Of a stretch of DNA of 64,000 nt, positions 16,201 to 50,535 are shown in pieces (the first letter of the stretch is position 1; every line of letters begins with the position of its first letter). The translations under genes were made by a program, and so were the position numbers. The DNA lies in contig JAWHQI010000614.1 of assembly GCA_033032865.1 (NCBI GenBank), positions 186,001 through 250,000 of the forward strand, written 5' to 3'. The stretch is from Dactylorhiza incarnata. Lineage: Eukaryota; Streptophyta; Magnoliopsida; Asparagales; Orchidaceae. The notes under the pieces were generated by a model. That model did no database searches. It was not told the DNA's origin and saw only the letters and a list, made by a program, of their open reading frames with translations.

Positions 16201-16339
16201 TTTCCATTATCTCTGAATGTAACAACTCCTCCTTTTTTATCTCCAGGCTAAGGAACTTCTCTTTATTGCCCGTTATGTGCTTTGAACAACCCGAGTCCAA
16301 GTACCACACGTCTTCTTTGTCCTTAGCCTGCCAACACAC
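13226..16339 (-). pseudogene. Copia A pol: protease, integrase, RT and RNase H
   Basis: Reading right to left, protease has DSGCSKHITGN (near 16280). Integrase has the HRRLGH zinc region, HMDLFGP (first D), IRSDHGGEFEN (second D) and a catalytic E in VVERKYRTL. The RT has [24 protein letters not shown] and the catalytic YVDDIIFG. RNase H has DRKSTSG and [10 protein letters not shown]. The stretch 13226-15415 is one 729-codon open frame with no lesion. Upstream of it are a TGA replacing a glycine codon (15464-15466), a TGA replacing the tryptophan of the LWHRRLGH motif (15908-15910) and a frame change near 16240, so full-length Pol cannot be made. The acidic E/D-rich linker near 14880-14990 is typical of this lineage between integrase and RT. 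Confidence 0.92.
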
Positions 16340-16867
16340 CTAGAAAGAAGAGATGAGTAAAGATCGGGTTACCCAAGTGGTTCCACCCATAGTATAGATA
16401 GAAGCCTTAGGCACCCAGATTTGTTTAATCTCACTTTTTCCTTTCCTCCAGCAAGAGTCCATAGTGTGACCAAATCTATTGCATTTGGCACATGTAATGT
16501 ATTGAGAAGAGTATAACTTTTCTGGACTTTTACTGGATGAGGATGCAGTATTAGACAATTTATTAACTTCAGAATTTTTGAAAATAGATTTTCTGGACTT
16601 TTCGCTGTCGCCGGCGACAGTGGTTATCGCCGGGCGATAGCTTCCTGATGTGTATCCGAGTCCAAACCTTCCAGATCCATGGCATTGGTATCCTAAGATC
16701 ATATCCAGTGATCTTCGGCCCATTCCAAATTTTTTCATGGCTAGCGTTAAGTCATGAATCTTGTTTCTCATTTCTGTATTCTCGGATACTAGATTTACAC
16801 ATCTACGTTCAAAAGATTTCTTTCCCTCATGGACTTTGGAAATTGAAGATTTCAGATCTCTCTCTAA
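16340..16867 (-). pseudogene. Copia A gag-pol linker with second zinc knuckle
   Basis: The open frame 16340-16771 contains CAKCNRFGHTMDSC (C-x2-C-x4-H-x4-C) and the SIRE-typical IWVPKAS shortly before protease. A doublet of palindromes (about 16604-16645) encodes the YRPAITTVAGDS segment. The homologous segment of copia B (38905-38955) has a different doublet at the same place. The region is cut on its 5' side by a Tourist-like MITE. Confidence 0.8.
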
Positions 16868-17062
16868 GGGTTTGTTTGGCTCGGCTTATTTGCTCCGGCG
16901 AGTTTGGACAAAATCGTCATTGTCATAGAATGTATGTTTGGTATGACAAATGTTACTATCATTACCAAGAAAAGAAACTAGTTATAAACATAAAATGTTT
17001 GGTATGACAATGACGTTTTTGTCCAAACTCACCGGAGCAAATAAGCCGAACCAAACGAAGCC
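16868..17062. mobile_element. Tourist-like (PIF/Harbinger) MITE, 195 bp
   Basis: The element has near-perfect terminal inverted repeats of about 55 bp (left GGGTTTGTTTGGCTCGGCTT, right end ...GCCGAACCAAACGAAGCC). It is flanked by a 3-bp TAA duplication (16865-16867 and 17063-17065). There is no coding capacity. It lies in the coiled-coil part of copia A gag, a recent nested insertion. Confidence 0.92.
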
Positions 17063-18465
17063 TAAAATCTCATTCTTTTTAGTAAGAATTTTTATTGTAG
17101 AATGAGATTTGGAAAGAGATTCTTCAAGTTCTTTAATTCTTCCCAAAAAGTGATCACGCTCTTGGCAAGAAATTTCTCCTTTTCCAATAGTCTTAATTTC
17201 ATTTAACAATTTTTTGTTTTCTTTAAGTAAAATTTTATTTTCAGATTTAAGAAGATCATTATCTAATAAACTTTTTTCAAAAAATTTGCAAGTCTTTAAA
17301 AATTCAGAAAATAATTCATCATAGGTTGGAGGAGTTACCTCAGTGTCGGTTTAGACACTGCATTCATCATCAGATATGACGCTCTTTCCCATTAAGCACA
17401 TGTTGGCCTCCTCTTGTTTACTTGAGCTTGAACTACTTGCATCCTCAGAAGTAGTATCATCCCATGTTTCTGCCTTCAGCACCTTCTTCTTCCCTTTGTG
17501 CTTCTTTTCTTTAAGTTCTTTTAAGTACTTTGGACACTTGCTTCGGATGTGTCCTAACTTCTTGCAGTGATAGCACTCCGGTGGCGGTCTCTCTTCCTCC
17601 TCGTCGTCTTCCTTTTCTTTTTTCTTCCTAAACGTCTCCTTCTTAAAATACTTCTTAAATGAATTCCTCCTCTCTGGATTTTTCATAAATTTTCTAAACT
17701 TTCTAACAAATAAACTTTCCTCATCTTCTTCTTCCTCCTCAGAATCACTACTTTCCTCCTTCTTAGATCTTAGAGTCAATCCCTTCTTCTTTGGCTCCAT
17801 ATACTCTTGTTGTTGAATTTTCAATTCAACTTCATGAGTTTTCAAGTTCCCAATCAGACTTTCAATATTAAGAGCTTTAAGATCATGAGATTCAGAAATA
17901 GCCGTCACTTTGGGATTGAATTTAGGGGGGAGAGATCTAAGAAGTTTTCTTACCAAATCACCATTTGAGAAATTTTTCCTAAAACTTTTGAGTCATTTAC
18001 TATCTTAGTGAATCTTGTGTACATGGTATCCACATCCTCATCTACCTTCATCCTGAACTTTTCAAATTCTGACTCCAATTGGAAAAGCTTTGAGTCCTTC
18101 ACCTGCGAGGTACCTTCATGAGTAATTTCCAATAAATTCCAAATTTCATATGCAGTTTGACATGCACAGGTTCTATTAAATTCAGTTTTATCAAGAGCAC
18201 AAAATAATACGTTCATTGCTTTTGCATTATTTTTGCATTTTAATTTGTCCTGGTCATCCCATTTATCTTTGGGTTTCTCCATGACAATATCACCAATTGT
18301 AAAAGTAGGATGAGTATAATTTATTTCAACCATATTCCATACTTCAATATCTAATGATATTAAAAAACACCTCATCCTAGTTTTCCAATAATTATAATCG
18401 GAACCCGTAAATAATGGTGGTCTAGTTATTCCTTGCCCCTCGGAAAATGCATGATCATGGTGCGC
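17063..18465 (-). pseudogene. Copia A gag
   Basis: The N-terminal part (about 18465-17950) reads like SIRE gag, with LFTGSDYNYW, RMRCFLISLDIEVW and EIWNLLEITHEGTSQVKDSK. A frame change near 17953 leads into 17351-17956, which has the zinc knuckle CYHCKKLGHIRSKC (C-x2-C-x4-H-x4-C), a long acidic E/D run and a lysine-rich tail. The end (to 17063) is coiled-coil. The expected ATG is not preserved: copia B has MMSYDLAFSE where A reads HHDHAFSE without a start. Gag would build the particle and bind RNA. This copy is probably non-functional. Confidence 0.85.
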
Positions 18466-18505
18466 TATAATTCTAGGTGGTTAAACCTTATAAGGAATTA
18501 ACCTC

Positions 18506-18517
18506 GCTCTGATACCA
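18506..18517 (-). promoter_or_regulatory. Primer-binding site of copia A (initiator Met tRNA)
   Basis: The minus strand reads TGGTATCAGAGC two bases inside the 5' LTR, the standard plant retrotransposon complement of the initiator-methionine tRNA 3' end. Confidence 0.92.
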
Positions 18518-18519
18518 CG

Positions 18520-19778
18520 TGTTGGATCGTGTGAAGCCCTTAGAGGGGGGGGGGGTGAATAAGGGTGTGTTTAGAATATAATTTTTTTCTTAAGAATTTT
18601 TAAACAAATTTTACTTTTCTAAAATTACTTATAAACAATTTCAAACCAATGTAATTTTTGAATTAATTCAAACACAAATTTCTAAGTTAAAGATTAAGCA
18701 ACCAAATTTGCAATTAAAGAAAAAAACATAATTATATTAATCATGAAATTCACATACAATAAAAATGATCTTAACAATGCTTAAGATCAAGGCACAAATA
18801 TGATAATATAAATTTCAATAATTTTGAGTTTACCAATCCTTCTCCCAAGGATCAGAAGGCTATCACTTGTCTCTCCCTAGACCAAGCCCAAGCCTACCCT
18901 CTAGATCTTCCCAAGATCTAGACGTAGCACACAAGACCACGATTTCCTACCAAGCCACGCAAGGACTTGGACGCTCCGCACAAGGAAGCGATTTCCCCTA
19001 AGCCACACAAGGACTTAGACGTCGCACGCAAGACGACGATTTCCCTACCAATACAAAGAGAAATGAAAATAAATGAAAATACAAAGTCAAAAGAAGAACT
19101 CCCTAGAAATTCAGATCTCTGAAAGGAAAGTTGAAGCCTCGAGATGATCGTTGATGTAGAAGCGCATCCGATCTCGTCTTCAATCTCAATCATTCTAAGC
19201 ACAAATGGGAGTTGATGGGGTTCTCGAGCTCTCTGGTTCGTATGCACTCAGGAAAGGACTCAGAATCTTCAAAAGCATCAATTCCACGAAGTTTTGAGCT
19301 CTCTTAAGAAAAGAGAGCTGTCGCCGTCCGTTAGCTAGGTATCGCCAAAATCCGATATCTCTAGAGGCTGCCACGTGTCCCACTAATTCGAAGTTTCTGC
19401 GCGAAGTGGAGGGCGTGGTTGAGATGTGGGCTGTCGGATATCCGATAGCACTATCGGATATCCGTTAGCTTGCATAACTGTTGCACGTCTTAGAGTTACG
19501 GGAAGATCGTGCACTGTCGGAAATCCGTTACTGCTGTCGGAAATCCGATAGCTCTAAACCGTCGAGTAGAGATCGGAAAACGGAAGAAATCGTGCGCTGT
19601 CGGAAATCCGATACTGCTATCGGAAATCCGATAGCTCCAATTTCTGGAAAATCATTATTTTGCTCCAATTGAAAACATGTTATTTTTGCACCTGTTATCT
19701 GCACACCATTAATCAAAAATAGGATCAAATACATTCGGGATTTGTTATTCTCAAACCGGACGAGTGCGGAATGCATGC
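18520..19778 (-). repeat. 5' LTR of copia A (interrupted; last bases at 22960-22966)
   Basis: Matches 8572-9841 almost throughout, including the palindrome doublets (about 19432-19640). It is cut 7 bp before its end by the Tekay-like solo LTR, whose CATGC duplication is 19774-19778 and 22955-22959. Confidence 0.92.
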
Positions 19779-21477
19779 TGTCACAACCCGCATTTTCTCA
19801 GGAATTAAGAATATCAGAGGAAGAGAAAATACGCGTCATGATGCCACGTCATGCAGGAGACAACTGCAGACGCTCAGGCGGGATCCTATTACTTGATAAT
19901 TGAAAACATGATTGCATGATAATCATTATTTGAAATCATTTATTAGGGTTTAGAGTAAGAACTGTGTCTCTCAGTTCATGAATCAACTAGTCCACAGAGA
20001 AGATTATATATGTAACTGCAGCGGAAAACACTTGATTTAGTTCATTTAAGGTCCTATATGCACGTGAAGGCAGGACATAAAGTAGATGATATGCACTTAT
20101 CTAGGCGTAGTATAAGTATAGAAAATATCCTTAGGTGACTTTAAGACTAAGGGTTTTAGTTAAAAATGATGAGATGAAGATGAATGAAAAGCCATTTTAT
20201 CACTATAATGCACCTAGTCATAAATCATTCCCAGAGCGTAAGGTATCAGATCTAAAAGCAGTGGCATAAACTGGTAAGTAAACTATAAAGTATTAAAGAG
20301 GCACAATGGGCGTCAACAAGCTGACACTAACCCATTGGCCCAAACTAGCATGTCTGAACACAAGGAGAAGCAAACAACAACAACTACTACTACCTCGCAG
20401 CAGCGGGGTAAACAGCAGCTAAAAACTCCCGAAGACTTCGGGCTACTCCACTAACCGCTACGGCTCTGAAACCTGAGGCATTCAATAAATAAGAACGCCT
20501 CAGCAAGGGAATTGCAAGTGGCAAGAAATAAGGAAAAGACAAGCAATAAAGGCATACGGGGTACCAACCCAAGCCTGATTCACTGAAAAAGAAGCTCTGA
20601 AACAAGGAGCTAAGCAAAGCACCAAGTACAACCAAATATCATAAGTAGAAGCAAGTATAAATTAATTATCTTGTAAATTTTTCATACATGAGACTGATCA
20701 GCTCAAATAAACGGGTGTGGTTTCTTACCTCCGCAACCCAAGCCCAAACTGGTGGGGGTTTCTATTACCCTATCACCCAAACACGGCCCACAGGAACACA
20801 GGCAACGCCTGCTGATCACGTCCTTGAAATGGCCACCGTGCAAAGCTAAAAGCATATATTCATTTTAATTAAATCATTAAGACACGGGACGAAGCTCGAG
20901 AAACAATCAACAGGGATACCCTAAGAGATAGGGTCAAAGCAAGGCACACACCGATCAAGATGAATCACAAGCGAAACCAAGGATTTGCAAGATCACAGCA
21001 AGTTTAGAATTTTGATAGGAGGTAAACATGATCAAAGACGCAATGCAGTTATTAGCAACATCACCGCATACTGCTAACATCACAAATACTAAGAAGAAAC
21101 ACCCTAAGGATAGGGTCACCATGAGATAACTGCTGATCAAACGATTCATAAGGGGAAACTCGGAGTCATTGAACCAAAAAGGCAAAGGGGTTCAAGCTCG
21201 AGGGATTCACGATCAAGGACACCCAAGAGACTTGGGCAAAACTCCTTGTACCCTTGTAAGAGGCACAAGGTTTCAAGAAGGAGGAGAAGTAATCAGAGGC
21301 ATAACTCATGACGAATCATAAGAGTAAACTCAAACATTATCAGACCACCACGAGTAAAAGAATTCAAGCAAAAGGGATTCAAGATCAGGAGCACCGAAGG
21401 GTCACTGACAATCATCCAAGTACACCCGAGGGGTCACGAGCTCCTAACACAAAAACTCAACGAAAACACAAGCGTTC

Positions 21478-22045: not shown

Positions 22046-22971
22046 AACTCTAGATTCAGTAAGGGAACGAGGATTTTATCTATTCCGGTTTTCTCCAGGG
22101 AACAACTACCCGATTCATAGCAAAGGAAGAACAATCAAGGAAGCTTATATCAACACTCCAAAACTTAAGTTAAACCGAGCGACATGAAATCGACACGAGC
22201 GAAACAATGCTTCAAGAAAAGAAAGAGAAGGAGGAGGAAGCCACTTGCCTTAACCTTGCAGAACTCCACTAACTTCACTCTGAAAGCTAAGGAAACTCCT
22301 GAGCACGGAAACCTGGAACGATTCGGACCAAAAGGAGGAGTTAGGCCACTACCAAAACTTCAAAAGCTCCACGAAGAGAGACAAGCTTACCACTAAGACG
22401 AAGATCTCGCCGAGAGCTTTCCAAATCTTCAAACCAATCCCGATTCCGACCACTACAGCCCTAGCAATCACCGGCCGGAAGCTCTCTGAAGCTCCGCTCT
22501 CGCCCTAACCCTCGGCGGCTGATTTTGATCGAGGAAAAGGAAGATGAATAGGAGGAGGGGATTTTTGGCTTATATAAAACCTAAATTTATTATTTAAATA
22601 ATTAATTAATCCTCCAAATTACTTAAAACTGCGAGGGTGACCAAAACACCTCGGATTTCTACGAAATTCGCACCCTAACTAAAACACGGCGCTACGAATC
22701 CAACGGCGAAGTCAGAATTCAATTCCGACAAGCCAAACTCCGGATAAAGCCTCCTGAAGCTAAAATCTTGATAATTACTCCAAACCTTCACTTTAACTCG
22801 AAACGACGCGAAATCTCGCACGCTCGATCTGAATCACGAGCTCCAACTAAGCTAAGGCTCGAAACACTACCAAAAGAGCTGACGTAACGCCCTTACGTCA
22901 AAATTACGTCACAACGGGTACGTAAAATAATTGACGAAAATCAGGGGCGTTACACATGCTCCAACAAATTG

Positions 22972-23157
22972 GTCCAAGCTCTTAGGCAGTGTTGAGTTCC
23001 TCCGCCTCCGGAAGAGCTAAGCTCCCAGGAAGTGTCAAAGTCATCCACTCCAGTTGGTCCAAGATCTTAGGCAGTGTCGAGTTCCCCCACCTCCGGGTGA
23101 GCTAAGCTCCCAGGAAGTGTCGAAGTCCTCCACTCCAGTTGGTCCAATCCCTTAAGA
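22972..23157 (+). repeat. 85-bp tandem repeats, continuation after copia A
   Basis: The array resumes exactly in register (AATTGGTCCAAGCTCTTAGG) with about two more 85-bp units before changing to the 45-bp repeat. Confidence 0.85.
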
Positions 23158-23450
23158 GGTGTTGGGCTCCCTCCATCTCAGGTTGAGTTTAGCTCGACTA
23201 GAGGTGTTGAGCTCCCTCCACCGAAGGTTAAATTCAACTCGACTAGAGGTGTCGGGCTCCCTCCATCTCAGGTTGAGTTCAACTCGACTAGAGGTATTGA
23301 GCTCCCTCCATCTCAGGTTAAGTTCAGCTCGACTAGAGGTGTTGAACTTCCTACACCTAAAGTTGAGCTCGGCTCGACTAGAGGTGTCAGTTCCCTCCAC
23401 CTCAAGTTGAGTTCAGCTCGACTAGAGGTGTTGAACTTTCTCCACCTCCA
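23158..23450 (+). repeat. 45-bp tandem repeats, first block
   Basis: The unit GGTGTTGAGCTCCCTCCACC...AGCTCGACTAGA repeats at 45-bp spacing (23158, 23203 and onward), about six to seven copies. Because 45 is a multiple of 3 it gives open frames in several phases; these are artefacts. Confidence 0.85.
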
Positions 23451-23880
23451 GTTGAGCTCGATTCACGGGTGGGTTGTTAAGTGAAGAAAGGTTTGTTATT
23501 CTTGCGCTTAGTTCGGATTGAACCATCTTTAAGGAGTTCAACCACCGCGTTCTCACCCGTCTCTCTGAACCACATGTGATCCATTATTTTTTCGGGCTCG
23601 TATCGAATCCGAAAAAGCAGGGATTGTGTATAACCCGTAATTCGTCGAGACTAGGGTGGATAGTGAAAGTGACTATGATAAGTGGAATGACCGATTGGAG
23701 GAAACCGAAATCGACCAAAATAATGAGACAAGGCTCGGAGGAAGAGGAAGTGGATAGGTCCACTTCCCCACTTGGGCGAGTGAACCCAGTGGTCCACTAC
23801 CCCAAGGCAGGGGCGAGTGGACCACTGGTCCACTCGCCCAGCCCCGAGCGAGTGGACCTATGGTCCACTCGCCCAAGGAT
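23451..23880 (+). other. Unique spacer of the Tat 3' region, first copy
   Basis: Non-repetitive sequence including GGATTGTGTATAACCCG (about 23623) and then GAGTGGACC...GGTCCACTC hairpins (about 23770-23880). The whole block recurs about 1.12 kb further on (24575-24980). Confidence 0.6.
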
Positions 23881-24574
23881 GTGTCGAAGTCCTCCACTCC
23901 AGTTGGTCCAAGCTCTTAGGCAGTGTTGAGTTCCTCCGCCTCCGGGTGAGCTAAGCTCCCAGGAAGTGTTGAAGTCCTCCACTCCAGTTGGTCCAAGCTC
24001 TTAGACAGTTTCGAGTTCCTCCTCCTCCGGGTGAGTTAAGCTCCCAGTAAGTGTCAGAGTCCTCCACTCCAGTTGGTCCAAGCTCTTAGGCAGTGTCGAG
24101 TTCCTCCGCCTCCGGGAGAGCTAAGATCCCAGGAAGTGTCGAAGTCCTCAACTCTAGTTGGTCGAAGATCTTAGGCAATGTCGAGTTCCTCCACCTCAGG
24201 GTGAGCTAAGCTCCCAGGACGTGTCGAAGTCCTCCACTCCAGTTGATCCAAGCCCTTAAGAGGTGTTGAGCTCCCTCTATCCCAGGTTGAGTTCAGCTCG
24301 ACTAGAGGTGTTAAGCTCCCTCCACCTAGTGTTGAGCTCCCTCCACCTCAGGTTAAGTTCAACTCGACTAGAGGTGTTGGGCTCCCTCCATCTCAGGTTA
24401 AGTTCAGCTCGACTAGAGGTGTTGAGCTTCCTCCACCTAAAGTTGAGCTCGACTCGACTAGAGGTGTCGAGTTCCCTCCACCTTAATTTGAGTTCAGCTC
24501 GACTAGAGTTGTTGAGCTTCTCCCACCTCAAGTTGAGTTCAGCTTGACTAGAGGTGTTGAACTTTCTCCACCTC
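23881..24574 (+). repeat. 85-bp then 45-bp repeats, second block
   Basis: About four and a half 85-bp units (23881-24262) are followed by about six 45-bp units (24262-24574), the same order as at 22972-23450. With the spacers either side this is a larger tandem duplication with an offset near 1124 bp. Confidence 0.8.
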
Positions 24575-25163
24575 CAGTTGATCTCGATTCACGGGAGGGT
24601 TTTAAGTGAAGAAAGGTTTGTCATTCTTGCACTTAGTTTGGATTGAACTGTCTTTAAAGAGTTCAACCACCGCGTTCTCACCCGTCTCTCTAAACCACAG
24701 GTGATCCATTGTTTTTTAGGGCTCATATCGAACCTGAAAAAGCAGGGATTGTGTATAACCCGTAATTCGTCGAGACTAAGGTGGATAGTGAAAGTGACCG
24801 TGACAAGTGGAACAATCGATTGGAGGAAATCGAAACCGACCGGAATAATGAGACAAGGCCCGGGAGAAGAGGAAGTGGAGCATACCCGCTTGGGCGAGTT
24901 GACCTAGTGGTCCACTCCCCCAAGGCAGGGGCGAGTGGACCACTGGTCCACTCGCCCAGCCCCGAGCGAGTGGACCTATGGTCCACTCACCCAAGGTAGG
25001 GTCGAGTGGACCACTGGTCCACTCGGGGTGGACCTATGGTCCACTCGCGGCGAGTGGACCACCACTCGCCTGGGGTAAGGGCGAGTGGACCTGTGGTCCA
25101 CTTGCCCCCGACATTTGGGCGAGTGGACCACGAGTCCACTCCCCCAATGAGGAGTGGACCGAG
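24575..25163 (+). repeat. Second spacer copy and hairpin array (GAGTGGACC/GGTCCACTC)
   Basis: After a copy of the spacer, 24895-25163 is a run of palindromes such as GCGAGTGGACC-ACT-GGTCCACTCGC with 11-bp arms and 2-5 bp loops, about eight copies. Element C inserted inside this run; it continues at 47663 (GTCCACTCGCCC...). Confidence 0.8.
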
Positions 25164-28100: not shown

Positions 28101-28754
28101 AAAGGGTTTCTTTAGAATATTCATTTATGTGATTTATTTGCCTTTATAAAATTTGAAATTTGACCAGTAGACTTTTCTGACTAAGATGAAGGTCTAGTAA
28201 TTTTTCCATAATTTTTGGATAAGTATTTTTGATGGTTCCTTCATTAACCTCCAAATTGGGGTAGATGTTAAATATTATAATTAGAGGAGAATTCCTGATT
28301 GTAAAACTGTGACATTATGTACCTACTGTTATTTTGGCATGATAGATTTATTTTAATTTTATGGAGTTATATCATAAGAATACCTTACACTTCATGTTCA
28401 TATTCATACTTGGCAAATGTTGAAGAAATTAAAATAAATGCTATAATGTTAAGGAAAAATATGAATCTCTGGATTTAGTCTTATAATGTTATGATAGTCC
28501 TCCAGTAATAATTTTATGTCAGGTGGATGAGTATTTGGAGTACCTCTACTTATGTGGTTCATATAGTTCGTTTGGTCTGCGTATAGTAAAAAGGTAAAAC
28601 TATGGTGATTAATGGTCTACTAAAAGGAAATGAGGTTTACTTAGAGTACATGGTCAGGTTGAAGAGGTTGAGGTCACTAAAAGAAGTTCATGTGATGAGA
28701 GTGTACTTGGTGGGTTAAGAGTAAGTTGTGTTCGGGATCGACGAAAGATCGACT
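25164..28754. other. Left part of element C, no gene; TTGAC/GTCAA-rich
   Basis: About 25380-25960 is packed with TTGACC and GTCAA words, the W-box core, often as AATTTGACCAAAGTCAAC. The rest is low in structure; the open frame at 26116-26343 and others are short and unrecognised. A copia B TSD (CGACT) closes it at 28750-28754. Confidence 0.6.
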
Positions 28755-30040
28755 TGTTGGACATGTGTGTCACATCCCTTTGTTTGAGAATAACAAATCC
28801 CAAATTGTATTTAATCTTGCTTGTCATGTGTTTAAAGTGTGCAGGAACTATAGGTGCAATACTCCACAGGTAGAAAGCAGCTGAATTCAAAAATCTGGAA
28901 GAATGCACTACCACCAGCGTTAGAGCTACCGCCAGGCGCTAGCTCAGGTTCCGTTCGACGAATTTGCCTGCGTTCGACAAAAACTCCGTTCGACGAAAAT
29001 TTTCGTTCGACGAACTTGAAGCTCCGTTCGACGAAAAATTCGTTCGACGAAAATTTCCGTTCGACAAACTTGAAGCTCCGTTCGACGAAAATTCCGTTCG
29101 ACGAATTTCGTTCGACGAAAGTTTGTTCTTCCACGCCGCCGACGGTTTCGCAACCGCTCCACGTGAACGCTACCGCCAGCGCTAGCGCTACCGCCTGGCG
29201 CTATCTCAAGTTCGTGCACAACGCCACGCCACCGACGATTTCGCAACCGCTTCACACGAACGCTACCGCAGGCGCTAGGAGCTACCGCAGACGTTATCCA
29301 AGATCTATAAATTGATGGGCTCTCTCTTGTTTTGAGCTAGTGCTTCCAGAGAGATTACTTGTGCCAAATTTCCAGAGCTGCTACTCTGCCGAAAGTTCAT
29401 CTCTCACTCAAAGCCAAAGAGGATTTCTGGAGAAGGAAGCCACCACGGTGCATCCGAAGAACGATCGCTTCAACCTCGCTTATGCTACAGTGATCCTTCA
29501 TCCTCATCTTCAGAGATCTCATATAGGGAGTTACATTATTGTTATATTTATTTTCATTCCATATACTTTTTGTAATCGTTTAGTTAATTCGCCTTGTGTT
29601 GGCGACTAGGTCTGGGTAGGACTTAGGGAGTAATTCGCCTTGTGTTGGCGACTAGTTCTAGGTGATTAGATCTAAGGGTGCTTGAGTCCATATCCGGGGA
29701 AGGATTGGCTAGAGCGGCTTGAGGCCTTATCCGGGGAAGGATAGGCTAAAGCCAACCGTTTTGTGGGGATACAAGTCGGTATAGAAAAGGAAAAATTGTA
29801 TTACTTTATACGCCTCCGATTTCAAGCGATATTGAAATCAATTTGTGTAAACACATTTTCTATATAATATAATCATGTCTCTTTCTGTGTTTACTTGATT
29901 TCTATCATTTGACATAATTTATAAACTTGCAAATTACAATTGTTTCCTCCTTTAAGTCAAATTGTTATTTCATTCTAAATTACTCAAAACAATTTAGTAA
30001 ATTGTCTAAAATTATAAAGAAGAATTTTATTCCCTTATTC
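28755..30040 (+). repeat. 5' LTR of copia B, left part
   Basis: Matches 44103-45398 up to the CCCTTATTC near its end, where the 5S array is inserted (TSD TATTC, 30036-30040). The remaining LTR end is 36197-36233. It contains a TTCGTTCGACGAA-type array (28955-29130) and GCTACCGCCAGGCGCTAGC-type palindromes (28915-28945, 29168-29212, 29262-29297). Confidence 0.9.
28955..29130. repeat. TTCGTTCGACGAA direct and inverted repeat array in LTR B
   Basis: About ten copies of CGTTCGACGAA are interleaved with AAATTT and AACTTGAAGCTC linkers, and some form perfect inverted repeats. A shorter version (about 44299-44452) is in the 3' LTR, so copy number has changed since insertion. Confidence 0.85.
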
Positions 30041-30379
30041 TGTAAAAGTACTGGCTAGCCTGACCCGGGCCCCTAGCCCAGTACTGCCGGCACCGACGGT
30101 CCAGCCTGACCCGGGCCCCTGGCACCGTCGGTTAAGCCCATCAACTACAAGCCTGCAGGCCGTGCACCCCAACCCCTCTCTGGCCCACCACAGGGCCCAG
30201 CGGGTTGTTGGAGACATACAGTCTCCCTTCGGTGAGAAGTGAGCCAGTTAAGCGGCGGCACGTGGACTTCCCAGGAGGTCACCCATCCCGTGACTACTCC
30301 AGCCCGAGCACGCTTAACTACAGAATACTTTCACTTCTCATCACCAACTGAGCTGCAGCTCAGTTGGTGATGAGAAGTG

Positions 30380-30452
30380 AAAGAACTCCATAGTTAAGCG
30401 TGTTCGGGTTGGAGTAGTACTGGGATGGGTGACCTCCTGGGAAGTCCACGTG
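30380..30452 (+). ncRNA. 5S rRNA-derived domain (representative; 15 copies in the array, 17 with the duplication)
   Basis: AGAACTCCATAGTTAAGCGT, then GAGTAGTACTGGGATGGGTG and ACCTCCTGGGAAGTCC, match plant 5S rRNA from about nucleotide 37 to 105, covering the A box, intermediate element and C box of the internal promoter. The first ~36 nt of 5S are replaced by unrelated sequence, so this is not a functional 5S gene. Plus-sense copies lie near 30393, 30899, 31770, 32777, 33678, 34325, 35222, 35881 and 36858. Minus-sense copies lie near 30310, 31470, 32700, 33375, 34245, 34920, 35795 and 36775. Confidence 0.85.
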
Positions 30453-32438
30453 CCGCCGCTTAACTGGCTCACTTCTCACCAAAGGGAGACTGTATGTCTC
30501 CAACAACCCGCTGGGCCCTGTGGTGGGCCAGAGAGGGGTTGGGGTGCACGGCCTACAGGCTTGTGGTTAACACTTCGGGGTGAGGCTGAACCGGCGGTGC
30601 CAGCTGGGTCCCAGTCGGTCCCTGTTAGGGGGCTGGGCGTGGGCCGTCGGTGCCGGCAGTACTGGGCTAGGGGACCGGATCAGGCTAGCCAGTACTGTTA
30701 CAAAAAGTGCACTTTTTGTAACAGTACTGGCTAGCCTGACCCGGGCCCCTAGCCCAGTACTGCCGGCACCGACGGTCCAGCCTGACCCGGGCCCCTGACA
30801 CCGTCGGTTAAGCCCATCAACTACAAGCCTGCAGGCTGTGCACCCCAACCCTTCTCATCACCAGCTCAGTTGGTGATGAGAAGTGAAAGTATTCCGTAGT
30901 TAAGCGTGCTCGGGCTGGAGTAGTCACGGGATGGGTGACCTCCTGGGAAGTCCATGTGCCGCCGCTTAACTGGCTCACTTCTCACCGAAGGGAGACTGTA
31001 TGTCTCCAACAACCCGCTGGGCCCTGTGGTGGGCCAGAGAGGGGTTGGGGTGCACAGCCTGCAGGCTTGTAGTTGATGGGCTTAACCGACGGTGCCAAGG
31101 GCCCGGGTCAGGCTGGACCGTCGGTGCCGACAGTACTGGGCTAGGGGCCCGGGTCAGGCTAGTCAGTACTGTTACAAAAAGTGCACTTTTTGTAACAGTA
31201 CTGGCTAGCCTGACCCGGGCCCCTAGCCCAGTACTGCCGGCACCGACGGCCCACGACCGTCAACAGACCTACTGGCACCGCCGGTTAAGCCTCACCTAAA
31301 CGGGTTAACCACAAGCCTGCAGGTCGTGCACCCCAACCCCTCTCTGGCCCACCACAGGGCCCAGCGGGTTGTTGGAGACATACAGTCTCCCTTCGGTGAG
31401 AAGTGAGCCAGTTAAGCGGCGGCACGTGGAATTCCCAGGAGGTCACCCATCCCGTGACTACTCCAGCCCGAGCACGCTTAACTACGGAGTTCTTTCAATT
31501 CTCATCACCAACTGAGCTGTTTGTAACGGTACTGGCCAGGACCGTCAACACATGACCTACAAGCCCAGTACCGCCGGCACCGATGGCCCAGGCCCAGCCC
31601 CCTAACAGGGACCGACTGGGACCCAGCTGGCACCGCCGGTTCAGCCTCACCCCGAAGGGTTAACCACAAGCCTGCAGGCCGTGCACCCCAACCCCTCTCT
31701 GGCCCACCACAGGGCCCAGCGGGTTGTTGGAGACTCACAATCTCCCTTCTCACCGAAGTGAAAGTACTCCATAGTTAAGCGTGCTCGGGCTGGAGTAGTC
31801 ACGGGATGGGTGACCTCCTGGTAAGTCCACGTGCCGCCGCTTAACTGGCTCACTTCTCACCGAAGGGAGATTGTAAGTCTCCAACAACCCGCTGGGCCCT
31901 GTGGTGGGCCAGAGAGGGGTTGGGGTGCACGGCCTGCAGGCTTGTGGTTGACCCTTCGGGGTGAGGCTGAACCGGCGGTGCCAGCTGGTCCCAGTCGGTC
32001 CCTGTTAGGGGGCTGGGCCTGGGCCGTTGGTGCCGGTGGTACTGGGCTTGTAGGTCATGTGTTGACGGTCCTGGCCAGTACCGTTACAAAAAGTGCACTT
32101 TTTGTAACAGTACTGGCTAGCCTGACCCGGGCCCCTAGCCCAGTACTGCCGGCACCGACGGTCCAGCCTGACCCGGGCCCCTGGCACCGTCGGTTAAGCC
32201 CATCAACTACAAGCCTGCAGGCCGTGCACCCCAACCCCTCTCTGGCCCACCACAGGGCCCAGTGGGTTGTTGGAGACATACAGTCTCCCTTCGGTGAGAA
32301 GTGAGCCAGTTAAGCGGCGGCACGTGGGCTTAACCGACGGTGCCATGGGCCCGGGTCAGGCTGGACCGTCGGTGCCGGCAGTACTGGGCTAGGGGCCCGG
32401 GTCAGGCTAGTCAGTACTGTTACAAAAAGTGCCCTTTT

Positions 32439-33063
32439 TGTAACGGTACTGGCTAGCCTGACCCGGGCCCCTAGCCCAGTACTGCCGGCACCGACGGTCC
32501 AGCCTGACCCGGGCCCCTGGCACCGTCGGTTAAGCCCATCAACTACAAGCCTGCAGGCCGTGCACCCCAACCCCTCTCTGGCCCACCACAGGGCCCAGCG
32601 GGTTGTTGGAGACATACAGTCTCCCTTCGGTGAGAAGTGAGCCAGTTAAGCGGCGGCACGTGGACTTCCCAGGAGGTCACCCATCCCGTGACTACTCCAG
32701 CCCGAGCACGCTTAACTACGGAATACTTTCACTTCTCATCGCCAGCTCAGTTGGTGATGAGAAGTGAAAGTATTCCGTAGTTAAGCGTGCTCGGGCTGGA
32801 GTAGTCACGGGATGGGTGACCTCCTGGGAAGTCCACGTGCCGCCGCTTAACTGGCTCACTTCTCACCGAAGGGAGACTGTATGTCTCCAACAACCCGCTG
32901 GGCCCTGTGGTGGGCCAGAGAGGGGTTGGGGTGCACGACCTGCAGGCTTGTAGTTGATGGGCTTAACCGACGGTGCCAGGGGCCCGGGTCAGGCTGGACC
33001 GTCGGTGCCGGCAGTACTGGGCTAGGGGCCCGGGTCAGGCTAGCCAGTACTGTTACAAAAAGT
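32439..33063. repeat. Representative dyad of the 5S array (about 620 bp)
   Basis: From one tail (TGTAACGGTACTGG at 32439) inward to a head-to-head centre near 32746, then out to the next tail centre at 33062-33067. The two arms are near-perfect reverse complements over about 300 bp, so a single transcript or single strand could fold into one long hairpin. Confidence 0.85.
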
Positions 33064-36000
33064 GCACTTTTTGTAACGGTACTGGCCAGGACCATCAACA
33101 CATGACCTACAAGCTCAGTACCGCCGGCACCGACGGCCCAGGCCCAGCCCCCTAACAGGGACCGACTGGGACCCAGCTGGCACCGCCGGTTCAGCCTCAC
33201 CCCGAAGGGTTAACCACAAGCCTGCAGGCCGTGCACCCCAACCCCTCTCTGGCCCACCACAGGGCCCAGCGGGTTGTTGGAGACTTACAATCTCCCTTCG
33301 GTGAGAAGTGAGCCAGTTAAGCGGCGGCACGTGGACTTCCCAGGAGGTCACCCATCCCGTGACTACTCCAGCCCGAGCACGCTTAACTATGGAGTACTTT
33401 CACTTCGGTGAGAAGGGAGATTGTAAGTCTCCAACAACCCGCTGGGCCCTGTGGTGGGCCAGAGAGGGGTTGGGGTGCACGGCCTGCAGGCTTGTGGTTA
33501 ACCCTTCGGGGTGAGGCTGAACCGGCGGTGCCAGCTGGGTCCCAGTCGGTCCCTGTTAGGGGGCTGGGCCTGGGCCATCGGTGCCGGCGGTACTGGGCTT
33601 GTAGGTCATGTGTTGACGGTCCTGGCCAATACCGTTACAAATAGCTCAGTTGGTGATGAGAATTGAAAGAACTCCGTAGTTAAGCGTGCTCGGGCTGGAG
33701 TAGTCACGGGATGGGTGACCTCCTGGGAAGTCCATGTGCCGCCGCTGAACTGGCTCACTTCTCACCGAAGGGATACTGTATGTCTCCAACAACCCGTTGG
33801 GCCCTGTGGTGGGCCAGAGAGGGGTTGGGGTGCACGGCCTGCAGGCTTGTGGTTAACCCGTTTGGGTGAGGCTTAACCGGCGGTGCCAGTAGGTCTGTTG
33901 ACGGTCGTGGGCCGTCGGTGCCGGCAGTACTGGGCTAGGGGCCCGGGTCAGGCTAGCCAGTACTGTTACAAAAAGTGCACTTTTTGTAACAGTACTGACT
34001 AGCCTGACCCGGGCCCCTAGACCAGTACTGCCGGCACCGACGGTCCAGCCTGACCCGGGCCCCTGGCACCGTCGGTTAAGCCCATCAACTACAAGCCTGC
34101 AGGCCGTGCACTCCAACCCCTCTCTGGCCCACCACAGGGTCCAGCGGGTTGTTGGAGACATACAGTCTCCCTTCGGTGAGAAGTGAGCCAGTTAAGCGAC
34201 GGCACGTGGACTTCCCAGGAGGTCACCCATCCCGTGACTACTCCAGCCCGAGCACGCTTAACTACGGAATACTTTCACTTCTCATCGCCAGCTCAGTTGG
34301 TGATGAGAAGTGAAAGTATTCCGTAGTTAAGCGTGCTCGGGCTAGAGTAGTCACGGGATGGGTGACCTCCTGGGAAGTCCACGTGCCGCCGCTTAACTGG
34401 CTCACTTCTCACCGAAGGGAGACTGTATGTCTCCAACAACCCGCTGGGCCCTGTGGTGGGCCAGAGAGGGGTTGGGGTGCACGGCCTGCAGGCTTGTAGT
34501 TGATGGGCTTAACCGACGGTGCCAGGGGCCCGGGTCAGGCTGGACCGTCGGTGCCGGCAGTACTGGGCTAGGGGCCCGGGTCAGGCTAGCCAGTACTGTT
34601 ACAAAAAGTGCACTTTTTGTAACGGTACTGGCCAGGACAGTCAACACATGACCTACAAGCCCAGTACCGTCGGCACCGACGGCCCAGGCCCAGCCCCCTA
34701 ACAGGGACCGACTGGGACCCAACTGGCACCGCCGGTTCAGCCTCACCCCGAAGGGTTAACCACAAGCCTGCAGGTCGTGCACCCCAACCCCTCTCTGGCC
34801 CACCACAGGGCCCAGCGGGTTGTTGGAGACTTACAATCTCCCTTCGGTGAGAAGTGAGCCAGTTAAGCGGCGACACATGGACTTCCCAGGAGGTCACCCA
34901 TCCCGTGACTACTCCAGCCCGAGCACGCTTAACTATGGAGTACTTTCACTTCGGTGAGAAGGGAGATTGTAAGTCTCCAACAACCCGTTGGGCCCTGTGG
35001 TGGGCCAGAGAGGGGTTGCGGTGCACGGCCTGCAGGCTTGTGGTTAACCCTTCGGGGTGAGGCTGAACCGGCGGTGCCAGCTGGGTCCCAGTCGGTCCCT
35101 GTTAGGGGGCTGGGCCTGGGCCATCGGTGCCGGCGGTACTGGGCTTGTAGGTCATGTGTTGACGGTCCTGGCCAGTACCGTTACAAACAGCTCAGTTGGT
35201 GATGAGAATTGAAAGAACTCCGTAGTTAAGCGTGCTCGGGCTGGAGTAGTCACGGGATGGGTGACCTCCTGGGAAGTCCACGTGCCGCCGCTTAACTGGC
35301 TCACTTCTCACCGAAGGGAGACTGTATGTCTCCAACAACCCGCTGGGCCCTATGGTGGGCCAGAGAGGGGTTGGGGTGCACGGCCTGCAGGCTTGTGGTT
35401 AACCCGTTTGGGTGAGGCTTAACCGGCGGTGCCAGTAGGTCTGTTGACGGTCGTGGGCCGTCGGTGCCGGCAGTACTGGGCTAGGGGCCCGGGTCAGGCT
35501 AGCCAGTACTGTTACAAAAAGTGCACTTTTTGTAACAGTACTGACTAGCCTGACCCGGGCCCCTAGCCCAGTACTGCCGGCACCGACGGTCCAGCCTGAC
35601 CCGGGCCCCTGGCACCGTCGGTTAAGCCCATCAACTACAAGCCTGCAGGCCGTGCACCCCAACCCCTCTCTGGCCCACCACAGGGCCCAACGGGTTGTTG
35701 GAGACATACAGTCTCCCTTCGGTGAGAAGTGAGCCAGTTAAGCGGCGGCACGTGGACTTCCCAGGAGGTCACCCATCCCGTGACTACTCCAGCCCGAGCA
35801 CGCTTAACTACGGAATACTTTCACTTCTCATCACCAACTGAGCTTCAGCTCAGTTGGTGATGAGAAGTGAAAGAACTCCATAGTTAAGCGTGCTCGGGTT
35901 GGAGTAGTACTGGGATGGGTGACCTCCTGGGAAGTCCACGTGCCGTCGCTTAACTGGCTCACTTCTCACCGAAGGGAGACTGTATGTCTCCAACAACCCG

Positions 36001-36235
36001 CTGGGCCCTGTGGTGGGCCAGAGTGGGGTTGGGGTGCCCGTCTGCAGGCTTGTGGTTAACCCTTCGGGGTGAGGCTGAACCGGCGGTGCCAGCTGGGTCC
36101 CAGTCGGTCCCTGTTAGGGGGCTGGGCGTGGGCCGTCGGTGCCGGCAGTACTGGGCTAGGGGCCCGGGTCAGGCTAGCCAGTACTGTTACATATTCACCT
36201 CCCCCTCCTCTAAGGGCGCCAATCGATCCAACAAG

Positions 36236-36247
36236 TGGTATCAGAGG
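36236..36247 (+). promoter_or_regulatory. Primer-binding site of copia B, first copy
   Basis: TGGTATCAGAGG lies two bases after the LTR end and is complementary to the initiator-Met tRNA except for the last base. Confidence 0.85.
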
Positions 36248-36281
36248 TAGGCTATTCCAAACGGTTTAAAAACCAGGAATA

Positions 36282-36709
36282 ATGATGTCTTATGATCTCG
36301 CTTTTTCCGAGGGTCAGGGAATTAGTAGACCTCCACTCTTTACCGGGTCAGATTATAATTACTGGAAAAATAGGATGAGATGTTTTCTTATGACCCTAGA
36401 TATTGAGGTATGGAATATGGTAGAAGAGGAATACTCTCCTCCTACATTTGTAGTTGGAGAGATAACTTAGATAAACCAAAAGATAAATGAGATGATAAGG
36501 ATAAGCTAAAATGCAAAAATAACGCCAAGGCTATGAATGATTTATTTTGTGCGTTAGATAGAACTGAATTTAATAGAATTTCTGCATATACTACTGCATA
36601 TGAAATTTGGAATCATTTGGAAGTTACTCATGAAGGTACATCGCAGGTTAAAGATTCAAAGCTTTTCCAACTTGAGTCGGAATATGAAAAATTCCGGATG
36701 GACGAAAGT
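36282..36709 (+). pseudogene. Truncated first copy of copia B gag
   Basis: It starts MMSYDLAFSEGQGI and runs into a stop after GEIT (36470). It then continues in another frame to RMDESE, where the duplicated 5S block takes over. It represents the amino-terminal part of SIRE gag only. Confidence 0.85.
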
Positions 36710-37212
36710 GAGCCAGTTAAGCGGCGGCACGTGGACTTCCCAGGAGGTCACCCATCCCGTGACTACTCCAGCCCGAGCACGTTAACTACGGAATACTTTC
36801 ACTTCTCATCACCAACTGAGCTGCAGCTCAGTTGGTGATGAGAAATGAAAGAACTCCATAGTTAAGCGTGCTCGGGTTGGAGTAGTACTGGGATGGGTGA
36901 CCTCCTGGGAAGTCCACGTGCCGTCGCTTAACTGGCTCACTTCTCACCGAAGGGAGACTGTATGTCTCCAACAACCCGCTGGGCCCTGTGGTGGGCCAGA
37001 GTGGGGTTGGGGTGCCCGTCTGCAGGCTTGTGGTTAACCCTTCGGGGTGAGGCTGAACCGGCGGTGCCAGCTGGGTCCCAGTCGGTCCCTGTTAGGGGGC
37101 TGGGCGTGGGCCGTCGGTGCCGGCAGTACTGGGCTAGGGGCCCGGGTCAGGCTAGCCAGTACTGTTACATATTCACCTCCCCCCCTCTAAGGGCGCCAAT
37201 CGATCCAACAAG

Positions 37213-37224
37213 TGGTATCAGAGG
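37213..37224 (+). promoter_or_regulatory. Primer-binding site of copia B, duplicated copy
   Basis: A second TGGTATCAGAGG, 977 bp after the first, created by the tandem duplication; both are preceded by the same LTR end. Confidence 0.85.
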
Positions 37225-37258
37225 TAGGCTATTCCAAACGGTTTAAAAACCAGGAATA

Positions 37259-38750
37259 ATGATGTCTTATGATCTCGCTTTTTCCGAGGGTCAGGGAATT
37301 AGTAGACCTCCACTCTTTACCGGGTCAGATTATAATTACTGGAAAAATAGGATGAGATGTTTTCTTATGACCCTAGATATTGAGGTATGGAATATGGTAG
37401 AAGAGGAATACTCTCCTCCTACATTTGTAGTTTGAGAGATAACTTAGATAAACCAAAAGATAAATGAGATGATAAGGATAAGCTAAAATGCAAAAATAAC
37501 GCCAAGGCTATGAATGATTTATTTTGTGCGTTAGATAGAACTGAATTTAATAGAATTTCTGCATGTACTACTGCATATGAAATTTGGAATCATTTGGAAG
37601 TTACTCATGAAGGTACATCGCAGGTTAAAGATTCAAAGCTTTTCCAACTTGAGTCGGAATATGAAAAATTCCGGATGGACGAAAGTGAAGATGTTGATGG
37701 CATGTACACGCGCTTCACCAAGATCGTCAATGCCTCCAAAGCACTTGGAAAGTCCTTCTTCAATGTCGACTTGGTCCGAAAGATCCTTCGTTCCCTTCCA
37801 CCAAAATTCAACTCGAAGGTGACGGCCATTTCAGAATCACACAATCTAAGGACGCTCCAAGTTGAGAGCCTCATTGGGAATCTCAAAACCCATGAGGTAG
37901 AACTCAAAATCCAATATGATGAATACAACAAGGAGCCATAGAAGAAGGCATTGGCACTAACATCAAAGAAGGAGTGCCAAGAGGATGAGGATGAAGATGA
38001 AGAAAGCCTTTGGTTGAAGAATTTCCGAAAATTCATGCGAATTCCGAAAAGGAGAAACACTTTCCGGAAATTTATCAAAAAGGATGCAATATGGAAAAAG
38101 TCATCCTCAAAGAAGGAAAAGGAGGAAAAGGAGAGCGACGATGAAGAAGAAAGACCTCCACCGGAGTGCTTTCATTGTAGGAAGACCAGGCACATTCAGA
38201 GCCAGTGCCCAAAGTTCTTGAAGGAGAAGAAGGAAAAACGGCACAAAGGAAAGGAGAAGAAGAAGGTGCTAAAAGCTAGAACATGAGATGACTCCTCCTC
38301 CTCCTCCGAAGAATCAAGCCGATCTTCATCAAGCGAAGATGAGGAAGCAAACATGTGCCTCATGGGACATGGAAACGACGGCGACGACACCAGTGTTCTT
38401 AGTGACACTGAGGTAACTCCTCCCACTTATGATGAACTCTATAATGAATTCCTTGAAACTTGCAAAGCTTTTGATAAAAATATGAAAGATAGTATTTTAT
38501 TGAATCATGAAAATGAATCTCTTATTAAAGAAAATCAAAAGCTTTCCAAAAAGGTAATTGTTTTAGAAAAGAGAAAGGTTTCTTGCCAAGAGTGTGATCA
38601 CTCGACTAAATTGGCAAAAGATATTGAAGAGTCACTTTCTAAAGCCATCTCTCATGCCAAAACTCTTACAAAAGAGAAGGGAAAATTAGAAAGGAAATTA
38701 GAAGCCTCTCTTTTGCAAATCAAAAATAATAAAAAAAGGTTTTGAAAATA
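37259..38750 (+). pseudogene. Copia B gag
   Basis: From the ATG at 37259, an internal TGA (in the stretch VV*EIT) and a frame change near 37440 interrupt the start. From 37510 the frame reads NDLFCALDRTEFNRIS, EIWNHLEVTHEGTSQVKDSK, then YTRFTKIVNASKALG and SLPPKFNSKVTAIS (to 37941). Frame 37951-38286 carries the acidic run and zinc knuckle CFHCRKTRHIQSQC (C-x2-C-x4-H-x4-C). Frame 38353-38745 is a coiled coil (LLNHENESLIKENQKLSKKV) ending at a stop. Four or more lesions separate these parts. The organisation is the same as in copia A. Confidence 0.85.
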
Positions 38751-44088: not shown

Positions 44089-44102
44089 CAAAAGGGGGAG
44101 AT
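44089..44102 (+). promoter_or_regulatory. Polypurine tract of copia B
   Basis: AAAAGGGGGAGAT directly precedes the 3' LTR start TGTTAGAC and is identical to that of copia A. Confidence 0.88.
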
Positions 44103-45398
44103 TGTTAGACATGTGTATCACATCCCTTTGTTTGAGAATAACAAATCCCAAATTGTATTTGATCTTGCTTGTCATGTGTTTATAGTGTGCAGGAACTATA
44201 GGTGCAATACTCCACAGGTAGAAAGCAGCTGAATTCAAAAATCTAGAAGAATGCACTACCGCGAGCGTCAGAGCTACTGCCAGGCGCTAGCTCAGGTTCC
44301 GTTCGACGAATTTTCCTGCGCTCGATGAAACTTCGTTTGAAGAAAATTTCTGTTCGACGAACTTGAAGCTCCGTTCGACGAAAATTTCGTTCGACGAACT
44401 TGAAGCTCCGTTCGACGAAAATTTCGTTCGACGAATTCCGTTCGACGAAAGTTTGTTCTTCCACGCCGCCGACGGTTTTGCAACCACTCCACACGAACGC
44501 TACCGCCAGCACTACCACCTGACGCTATCTCAAGTTCGTGCACAACGCCACGCCACCGATGGTTTCGCAACCGCTTCACACGAACGCTACCGCAAGCACT
44601 AGGAGCTACCGCAGGCACTATCTTCAAGATCTATAAATTGATGAGCTCTCTCTCGTTTTGAGCTAGTGCTTCCAGAGAGATTACTTGTGCCAAATTTCTA
44701 GAGCTGCTACTCTGCCGAAAGTTCATCTCCCACTCAAAGCCAAAGAGGATTTCTGGAGAAGAATGCCACCACGGTGCATCCGAAGAACGATCGCTTCAAC
44801 CTCGCTTATGCTACAACGATCCTTCATCCTCATCTTCAGAGATCTCATATAGGGAGTTACATTATTGTTATATTTATTTTCATTCCATATACTTTTTGTA
44901 ATCGTTTAGTTAATTCGCCTTGTGTTGGCGACTAGGTCTGGGTAGGACTTAGGGAGTAATTCGTCTTGTGTTGGCGACTAGTTCTAGGTGATTAGATCTA
45001 GGGGTGCTCGAGGCCATATCCAGGGAAGGATTGGCTAGAGTGGCTTGAGGCCTTATCCGGGGAAGAATATGCTAAAGCCAACTGGTTTGTGGGGATACAA
45101 GTCGGTATAGAAAAGGAAAAATTGTATTACTTTATACGCCTCCGATTTCAAGCGATATTGAAATCAATTTGTGTAAACACATTTTCTATATAATATAATC
45201 ACGTCTCTTTCTGTGTTTACTTGATTTCTATCATTTGACATAATTTATAAAATTGCAAATTACAATTGTTTCCTCCTTTAAGTCAAATTGTTATTTCATT
45301 CTAAATTACTCAAAACAATTTAGTAAATTTTCTAAAATTATAAAGAAGAATTTTATTCCCTTATTCACCCCCCTCTAAGGGCGCCAATCGATCCAACA
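44103..45398 (+). repeat. 3' LTR of copia B
   Basis: The 1296-bp LTR is complete, ending CCCCCTCTAAGGGCGCCAATCGATCCAACA in two short words with no insertion. Its TTCGACGAA array is shorter than that of the 5' LTR. Otherwise it matches the 5' LTR with scattered changes. Confidence 0.92.
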
Positions 45399-49703: not shown

Positions 49704-49756
49704 TACACTATTAATAAAAGTAATGAAATTTTATAAGCTATTTCTACTAAAAAAAT

Positions 49757-49809
49757 ACACATACATCACACATACCCCTCCTAAATACATACATACACAC
49801 ACACAAATA

Positions 49810-49849
<40 letters not shown>

Positions 49850-50050
49850 TACACAAACATACATACACACCCTAACATACACACATACACACACACATAC
49901 AAACATACACAAACATACATACACACCCAAACACACAAACACACACACAAACACTCACACACATACATTCAAACACACATACAAACACACACACACACAC
50001 ACACAAACATACATACACACCCAAACATACACACCTACACACATACATAA

Positions 50051-50081
<31 letters not shown>

Positions 50082-50535
50082 AACATACACACACATATAT
50101 ACACACACACACACACATATACATCCACACACACAGACACATATATACATCCACACACACATACACATATATACATCCACACACACACACACATATATAC
50201 ATCCACACACATACACATATATACATCCACACACACACATTCAAAAAAACAAACACACACACACACATTCAAAAAAACAAACACAACACACACACATATA
50301 TACATACACACACATTCAAAAAACAAACACAACACACACACATATATACATACACCACTTGCACCACACACACACACACACACAAACACAAAAACACAAC
50401 ATCACATTCACACACACATAGATCTGTACACACACATAAATCTGTACACACACACACACACATAAATTTGTACACACACACATAAATCTGTACACACACA
50501 CACACACATAAATCTGTACACACACACATAAATCT
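49757..50535. repeat. (CA)n-rich compound microsatellite
   Basis: Almost 780 bp of ACACAC/ACATAC with TATATACATCCACACAC and ACACATAAATCTGTAC sub-repeats. The cysteine/valine-rich open frames on the minus strand across it are translations of GT repeats and not proteins. Confidence 0.92.

Follow-up and report, generated by a model that had tools for sequence, protein, structure and literature searches.

What is the block of mainly inverted, 5S-bearing units that interrupts a copia long terminal repeat (LTR) in Dactylorhiza incarnata, and did it arrive ready-made or grow in place? The block, hereafter the array, spans 6151 bp, positions 30041-36191 of the window, i.e., the 64,000-nucleotide stretch that we analyzed (contig JAWHQI010000614.1, positions 186,001 to 250,000, forward strand; GenBank assembly GCA_033032865.1); our analysis covers this one site within one 64-kb window of one assembly. 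Its GC content is about 60%, as compared with 27-52% in the window's other kilobases. Our favored explanation, to which we give a probability of about one half, is that a non-autonomous, Cassandra-like element with a 5S-type promoter entered the copia LTR as a ready-made mirror-image multimer, joined to the chromosome by an LTR-type integrase. Observations that count for this explanation include the TG...CA ends, the target-site duplication (TSD) TATTC, the empty site elsewhere in the same copia, and the matching direct repeats S1 and S9 at the two ends.

The array and its insertion into a copia LTR

TATTC stands immediately left (30036-30040) and right (36192-36196) of the array, and it occurs as a single copy (45362-45366) in the host copia's second LTR (44102-45398, + strand), where the site is empty; the part of the first LTR left of the array is 28754-30040 (+ strand). 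When the array flanks are joined without the insert, they align to 45067-45398 of the second LTR over 337 columns with 96.7% identity and 5 gap bases, and the pre-insertion site is therefore known. The original prediction of a 5-bp TSD and of an insertion into an LTR of this copia is borne out in full, with exact coordinates, the empty site being preserved in the other LTR of that element. The inverted TGTAA-type outer ends that it described need a small correction: the TG...CA ends are present, but the left end reads TGTAAAAG, one base off TGTAACAG. The combination of TG...CA ends with a TSD of 4-6 bp is a trait of LTR retrotransposons, including terminal-repeat retrotransposons in miniature (TRIMs), and it is found here; judged from these bases, the ends and the TSD point to a retroviral-type integrase. 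The host copia has ends of its own at 28754 and 45398 (TGTTGG...CCAACA), and the near-matching flanks CGACT and CGTCT are a possible TSD with one mismatch.

The two terminal segments, S1 and S9, are direct repeats of each other over their whole length (646 of 661 positions identical, 97.7%). They are also alike when one of them is inverted (93.9% over 94% of the length). Long terminal inverted repeats are found as well, since the outer parts of the array, 30161-30568 and 35633-36040, match in inverted orientation at 94% and the ends themselves are inverted.

Fold-back segments and four types of half-unit

Nine fold-back segments, S1 to S9, each running from TGTAA to TTACA and each either a fold-back or a fold-back composite, make up the array together with eight 14-bp palindromic linkers (AAAAGTGCACTTTT) between them. 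The terminal segments S1 (30041-30702, 662 bp) and S9 (35531-36191, 661 bp) combine half-units of types B' and A, a composition unique to these two array ends, where it stands in direct orientation. S2 (30717-31176, 460 bp), S4 (32103-32424, 322 bp), S5 (32439-33057, 619 bp), and S7 (33985-34603, 619 bp, 98.7% identical to S5) are of the B'B kind; S2 has a 159-bp deletion in its left arm with 1-bp microhomology, and S4 has a 297-bp central deletion with 3-bp microhomology and no match to the 5S pattern described below. S6 (33072-33970, 899 bp) is a composite in which a D-type fold-back occupies 33072-33639 and a C-type half-unit comes after it at 33643-33970; S8 (34618-35516, 899 bp) is a copy of it at 98.1%, and S3 (31191-32088, 898 bp) is an inverted copy of the same type of segment, 98.2% and 98.1% identical to S6 and S8, respectively.

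The first linker is at 30703-30716 and the others start at 31177, 32089, 32425, 33058, 33971, 34604, and 35517; the dyad is perfect in seven of the eight, and the one starting at 32425 has a single mismatch. Each linker, together with the next T, gives a TTTTT run in both directions. Independent nested insertions were considered and are ruled out, because the linkers are one common sequence and the D-type fold-back within S6 has no TSD (its flanks are CTTTT to the left and AATAG to the right). On a larger scale, 32425-35516 is a tandem pair of a higher-order unit of 1546 bp, i.e., linker-S5-linker-S6 followed by linker-S7-linker-S8, with no gaps between the copies, and inverted arms of up to 1138 nt at 98% (30851-31988 against 33173-34310) far exceed what is expected by chance.

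The two kinds of dyad center that were predicted are real: the outer kind is the linker, and the inner kind, at the 5S side, takes several forms, namely AGCT-GC-AGCT in S1, AGCT-TC-AGCT in S9, and a looped center in S5 and S7, with centers deleted or shifted in S2, S4, S3, S6, and S8. These differing inner centers reflect either repeated fold-back events or central deletions, to which long palindromes are prone. The description of the array as multimeric and mainly inverted also stands, but the alternation of orientation is not strict: in each of S6 and S8, two neighboring half-units point the same way, and S3 is an inverted version of this segment. Likewise, the predicted units of about 310 bp correspond to 15 5S-bearing half-units of 306-346 bp, but these are of four types, and six further half-units are truncated.

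The half-unit alignment, tree, and statistics were based on the 15 half-units with a 5S domain; the six truncated ones (the left arm of S2, both arms of S4, and the short D arms of S3, S6, and S8) and the copy in the adjacent tandem duplicate were left out. The tree groups them into type A (n = 2, the right halves of S1 and S9), type B (n = 7), type C (n = 3), and type D (n = 3), with mean substitution differences of 1.6-2.9% within types as compared with 7.3-12.4% between them. The types are therefore older than the array, and a single inserted unit cannot have given rise to them. Nor can a recent, exact snap-back of one unit be the sole origin, because S1 and S9 each join two types that are about 8.7% apart.

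Promoter and terminator layout

A 5S-type internal promoter is found in all 15 of these half-units, eight on the + strand and seven on the - strand. In S1 it extends from the A box to the end of the C box at 30392-30445 (right half, +) and 30266-30319 (left half, -); the other + strand A boxes start at 30898, 31773, 32779, 33678, 34325, 35224, and 35882, and the other - strand A boxes are at 31457, 32691, 33362, 34237, 34908, and 35783. Cassandra elements have a published search pattern, and its 5S part (RGTTAAGYRHGY, 15-25 bases, RRRATRGGTRACY) matches 15 times in the array (eight + and seven -) and once in the adjacent duplicate, with no further match in the window. Among the 15 array copies, one aligned position of the A box and two of the C box are variable, and at each of these a single copy deviates; in the bases between the intermediate element (IE) and the C box, type A is unlike the remaining types. 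The predicted 5S-derived domain is upheld by these 15 matches, but the resemblance is partial: the Rfam 5S model at its gathering score has no match in the whole window, and the gathering score is exceeded only when one half-unit is searched alone (42.8 bits, truncated, with the first 31 model positions missing). An array of 5S ribosomal DNA spacers is ruled out because the 5S match is only partial.

In 13 of the 13 promoter-bearing half-units that face a linker, the first stretch of at least four T residues on the 5S-sense strand is the TTTTT of that linker, and each inner half-unit is therefore laid out as an RNA polymerase III (Pol III) unit, from promoter to terminator. From this layout we infer that the inner half-units may be transcribed by Pol III. 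The two outer half-units abut the TSD: that of S9 has no run of four or more T residues within 20 bases past its end, and that of S1 has TTTT in its own mutated end. At 33642-33653, the start of the C-type half-unit in S6, we also observed TAGCTCAGTTGG, which is similar to the A-box consensus of tRNA-type Pol III promoters; S8 has C instead of T in front of AGCTCAG. ARAGORN reported 0 genes in the window.

As RNA, S1 is predicted to form one long hairpin (-641.7 kcal/mol, z = -45.6 against 20 shuffles), which makes it a possible source of small RNAs. Many below-threshold matches to microRNA models occur in the array, and we read these as an effect of the palindromes.

Ready-made multimer or other origins

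Types about 6-12% apart exclude a single inserted unit at 1-3%, so the mixture was made before the insertion or came from elsewhere, and a pre-existing mixture favors insertion of a ready-made multimer. It is for the same reason that we consider it quite unlikely that only one small element (one fold-back, or S1-linker-S9) was inserted and then expanded into the array at this site through unequal exchange, breakage of palindromes, and tandem duplication. Such growth would agree with the tandem duplication of the 1546-bp unit, with another tandem duplication in the same neighborhood, with the microhomology deletions in S2 and S4, and with the finding that the 1546-bp copies are no more divergent than S1 and S9; however, the 6-12% that separate types C and D from A and B, together with the different end sequence of D, are beyond what growth from one unit at 1-3% divergence can make, and other subfamilies would have had to be imported later without TSDs.

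A number of points weigh against the ready-made multimer. A primer-binding site (PBS) of the methionine-tRNA type (TGGTATCAGAGC, up to 2 mismatches) does not occur anywhere in 30041-36191. Where a PBS would adjoin a 5' LTR, the linker after S1 is AAAAGTGCACTTTT without TGG, and TGG is absent from every linker; canonical reverse transcription is therefore without a visible primer site. In the array-wide Rfam search, the 15 5S matches score 24.8-33.4 bits, below the gathering score of 38. Variable gapless columns are less frequent in the promoter (8 of 53) than in the rest (62 of 242), but not significantly (p = 0.11). The copies of the 1546-bp unit are no more divergent than S1 and S9 (26/1546 as compared with 15/661; Fisher p = 0.39), and some internal copying may therefore be as late as the insertion or later. 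The likeness of S1 and S9 could reflect recombination. Finally, the array is so far known from the DNA sequence of one site alone.

With respect to priming sites, the prediction that neither a PBS nor a polypurine tract (PPT) lies inside is supported for the methionine type, whereas a PBS for other tRNAs was looked for at the linkers only and a PPT by reading the linkers only. No purine tract adjoining S9 was seen by eye; S9 is preceded by the same palindromic linker. This lack of a PBS (methionine type throughout the array, TGG at the linkers) would suit a fold-back DNA transposon resembling a miniature inverted-repeat transposable element (MITE), with long terminal inverted repeats and a captured 5S fragment, moved by a transposase that makes 5-bp duplications. 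The long inverted arms, so evident in the S1 hairpin (z = -45.6), the same end sequence on both sides, and the repeated GGCACCG- and GTACTGG-type motifs that we saw by eye near the segment ends are likewise in its favor. We nevertheless hold it to be unlikely, as TG...CA with 5 bp is the LTR pattern, the Pol III layout of promoter and terminator has no clear role in such a transposon, and the sequences between segments are one common linker rather than separate TSDs. Moreover, we know of no plant DNA-transposon superfamily with 5-bp TSDs.

A possible route to a mirror-image multimer

If the array was inserted as a multimer, the following route may be envisaged from its layout. Pol III would read outward from the 5S domain of a half-unit until it meets T5 in the adjoining linker, which would yield RNAs of about 340-375 nt, and the enzymes of an autonomous LTR retrotransposon would act on these half-unit RNAs or on longer read-through RNAs. 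Inverted joins could then arise from complementary DNA (cDNA) or RNA ends that fold back or pair; through the 14-nt palindromic linker, two transcripts could anneal by their tails. A retroviral-type integrase, of the kind that makes duplications of 5 bp, would next insert the linear multimer DNA, whose TG...CA end is the same at either side, into the chromosome; the internal deletions and part of the duplications would have come after or alongside the insertion. Two 14-nt linker tails form a perfect duplex (-16.5 kcal/mol), and a single 34-nt tail, in its best fold, lacks the AAAAG/CUUUU hairpin, so tail-to-tail pairing is more plausible than self-folding. Please note that the linker palindrome may equally be the product of an inverted join rather than its cause.

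A further idea, which we regard as very doubtful, is that this is an element with mirror-image long terminal repeats and no tRNA priming at all, whose transcripts would pair or fold at the linker palindrome and self-prime, with inverted multimers as the normal product, integrated whole by a borrowed LTR-type integrase. If other copies of the array exist, 5S-promoter retroelements can be mirror-image and PBS-less and still integrate as multimers with clean TSDs, and one small element would combine opposed Pol III promoters with a source of a double-stranded RNA stem of about 300 bp, which bears on the silencing of such elements and on the origin of inverted TRIM arrays. If the array is a one-off, it is still a mixed multimer, most likely inserted in one piece and timed between two other events at the locus.

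Timing of events at the locus

At the right end of the array is a tandem duplication that is absent from the earlier description of the array: 35727-36705 (979 bp), comprising the array right end, the TSD, and adjoining copia DNA, is repeated at 36706-37682 (977 bp, + strand) with 4 substitutions, 2 one-base gaps, and a breakpoint in the 6-bp microhomology AAGTGA. The three pairs of repeats at the locus have diverged to different degrees, i.e., 56/1263 substitutions (4.43%) between the copia LTRs, 15/661 (2.27%) between S1 and S9, and 4/977 (0.41%) in the neighboring duplication; relative to S1/S9, the divergence of the copia LTRs differs with p = 0.016 and that of the duplication with p = 0.0007. 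These counts fit an order in which the copia came first, the array next, and the duplication last, provided that S1 and S9 were identical at insertion and that the rates are alike.

The duplication (35727-37682) is either very recent or an assembly join. Its two copies agree in 979 of 985 columns, a gap falling in a run of C residues, and it looks like something an assembler could have made; near-identical inverted repeats are hard to assemble as well, so that mis-joined repeats or merged haplotypes might account for part of the internal order of the array. We find this highly improbable for the array itself: its outer junctions agree with the empty site, its repeated blocks differ by 1.3-2.3% and so are not one stretch laid down twice, and S3 is an inverted copy at 98% with differences of its own.

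Relation to Cassandra and other small elements

The original prediction of a Cassandra-like derivative holds as far as the 5S part matches the published pattern, but the methionine PBS that the published definition includes is absent. The full pattern, with this PBS 5-200 bases after the 5S part, matches at 0 of the 16 5S matches, and because of this we do not file the array as Cassandra; the comparison was made by the 5S pattern and the PBS only. In the available text on the 2024 Cassandra data set (PMC10853983), all elements have a methionine PBS and a PPT and measure 563-968 bp, and variable motifs between the IE and the C box are described, a feature that the array shares together with the 5S-derived Pol III promoter region, the small repeated unit, and the multimeric form. 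That text also places the 5S domain within 25-75% of the LTR; here it lies inside this range if S1 and S9 (661-662 bp) are taken as the LTR and outside it if the half-unit is (5S from about nt 27 of 345). Long Cassandra arrays with LTRs and internal domains in direct order and at least 12 copies are described in the available part of Kalendar et al. 2020 (PMC7215508). Such arrays are head-to-tail repeats of LTR and internal domain, whereas the array has mainly inverted units and a 14-bp linker without a PBS; the 662-bp segment that would be its LTR folds back on itself and carries two 5S domains facing in opposite directions. The absent PBS and the inverted units rule out a simple Cassandra array of direct repeats.

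Arrays of TRIMs are reported in 129 TRIM subfamilies in the accessible part of Gao et al. 2016 (PMC4717578), where polymorphic rice TRIM insertions leave 5-bp TSDs and where the Fig. 2 legend, for maize arrays validated by polymerase chain reaction, gives one example of "two inverted TRIMs" (Zma-SMART) with a 5-bp TSD. As in these tandemly arrayed TRIMs (TA-TRIMs), more than one unit lies here inside a single 5-bp TSD, and the maize pair is a known inverted case (PMC4717578). In contrast to that pair as far as the legend describes it, the array has nine segments instead of two TRIMs, 5S domains in both directions, and no recognizable PBS or internal domain. A TA-TRIM is defined by at least three LTRs and at least two internal regions per TSD; we found nine LTR-like, unequal fold-backs and eight linkers without a PBS-bearing internal domain. 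The length of 6151 bp exceeds the limit of about 1 kb for TRIMs, though TRIM arrays exceed it too.

TRIMs with Pol III promoters have been grouped as TRIMp3, with Helenus and Ajax (Kojima 2024, PMC10886601). According to the available text of that paper, these too are non-autonomous elements with the Pol III promoter of a small-RNA gene, with TSDs of 5 bp in Ajax and in the Helenus elements of fungi and plants; they differ from the array in that Helenus has two direct LTRs with a PBS and a PPT between them and Ajax has a tRNA-Leu PBS, and in the main text as available no word starts with "invert" (PMC10886601). As for the short interspersed nuclear elements of the SINE3 kind, compared by description only, the array resembles them in the 5S-derived head near the half-unit start and an A-rich stretch past the end. 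It departs from SINE3 in its TG...CA ends and in having fold-back ends with a 5-bp TSD, which SINEs are not known to have.

It had also been suggested that a form like this is undescribed. Parts of it are published, namely the directly repeated Cassandra arrays (PMC7215508) and one inverted maize TRIM pair (PMC4717578), but in the available parts of these sources we did not meet a mirror-image 5S array. None appeared either, as an inverted or a fold-back 5S array, in the titles and abstract openings of open-licence papers, for the part of the matches that was seen. Pattern searches with the half-unit and the linker dyad in viral contigs, and with the half-unit in genome contigs, gave 0 matches, as expected from collections without plants, and two mechanical open frames of the array, used as proxies for a DNA search, gave 3 and 6 candidates, none at E <= 0.01. 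Altogether, the array looks like an unusual inverted relative of known arrays of 5S-bearing elements.

Other features of the window

A second copia, related to the host copia, lies on the minus strand at 8570-19779, with LTRs at 8570-9835 and 18518-19779 that are 1.99% apart and a methionine PBS at 18506-18517. The copia pol open frame at 13229-15415 encodes a reverse-transcriptase domain and an SH3 domain and marks the window as plant DNA; among the 120 matches listed of at least 7978, its top identity over the full region is 73%, to the orchid Platanthera zijinensis, and the next match with full coverage is at 67%, which by itself is a hint of an orchid rather than proof. Minisatellite-like repeats are common to 8081-8567 and 22969-24996 (self-matches of about 78-92%), and 49748-50540 is also a repetitive tract. 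An open frame at 54974-56185 (-) has a weak match to the MuDR transposase DNA-binding domain (24.8 bits, with a cut-off of 25).

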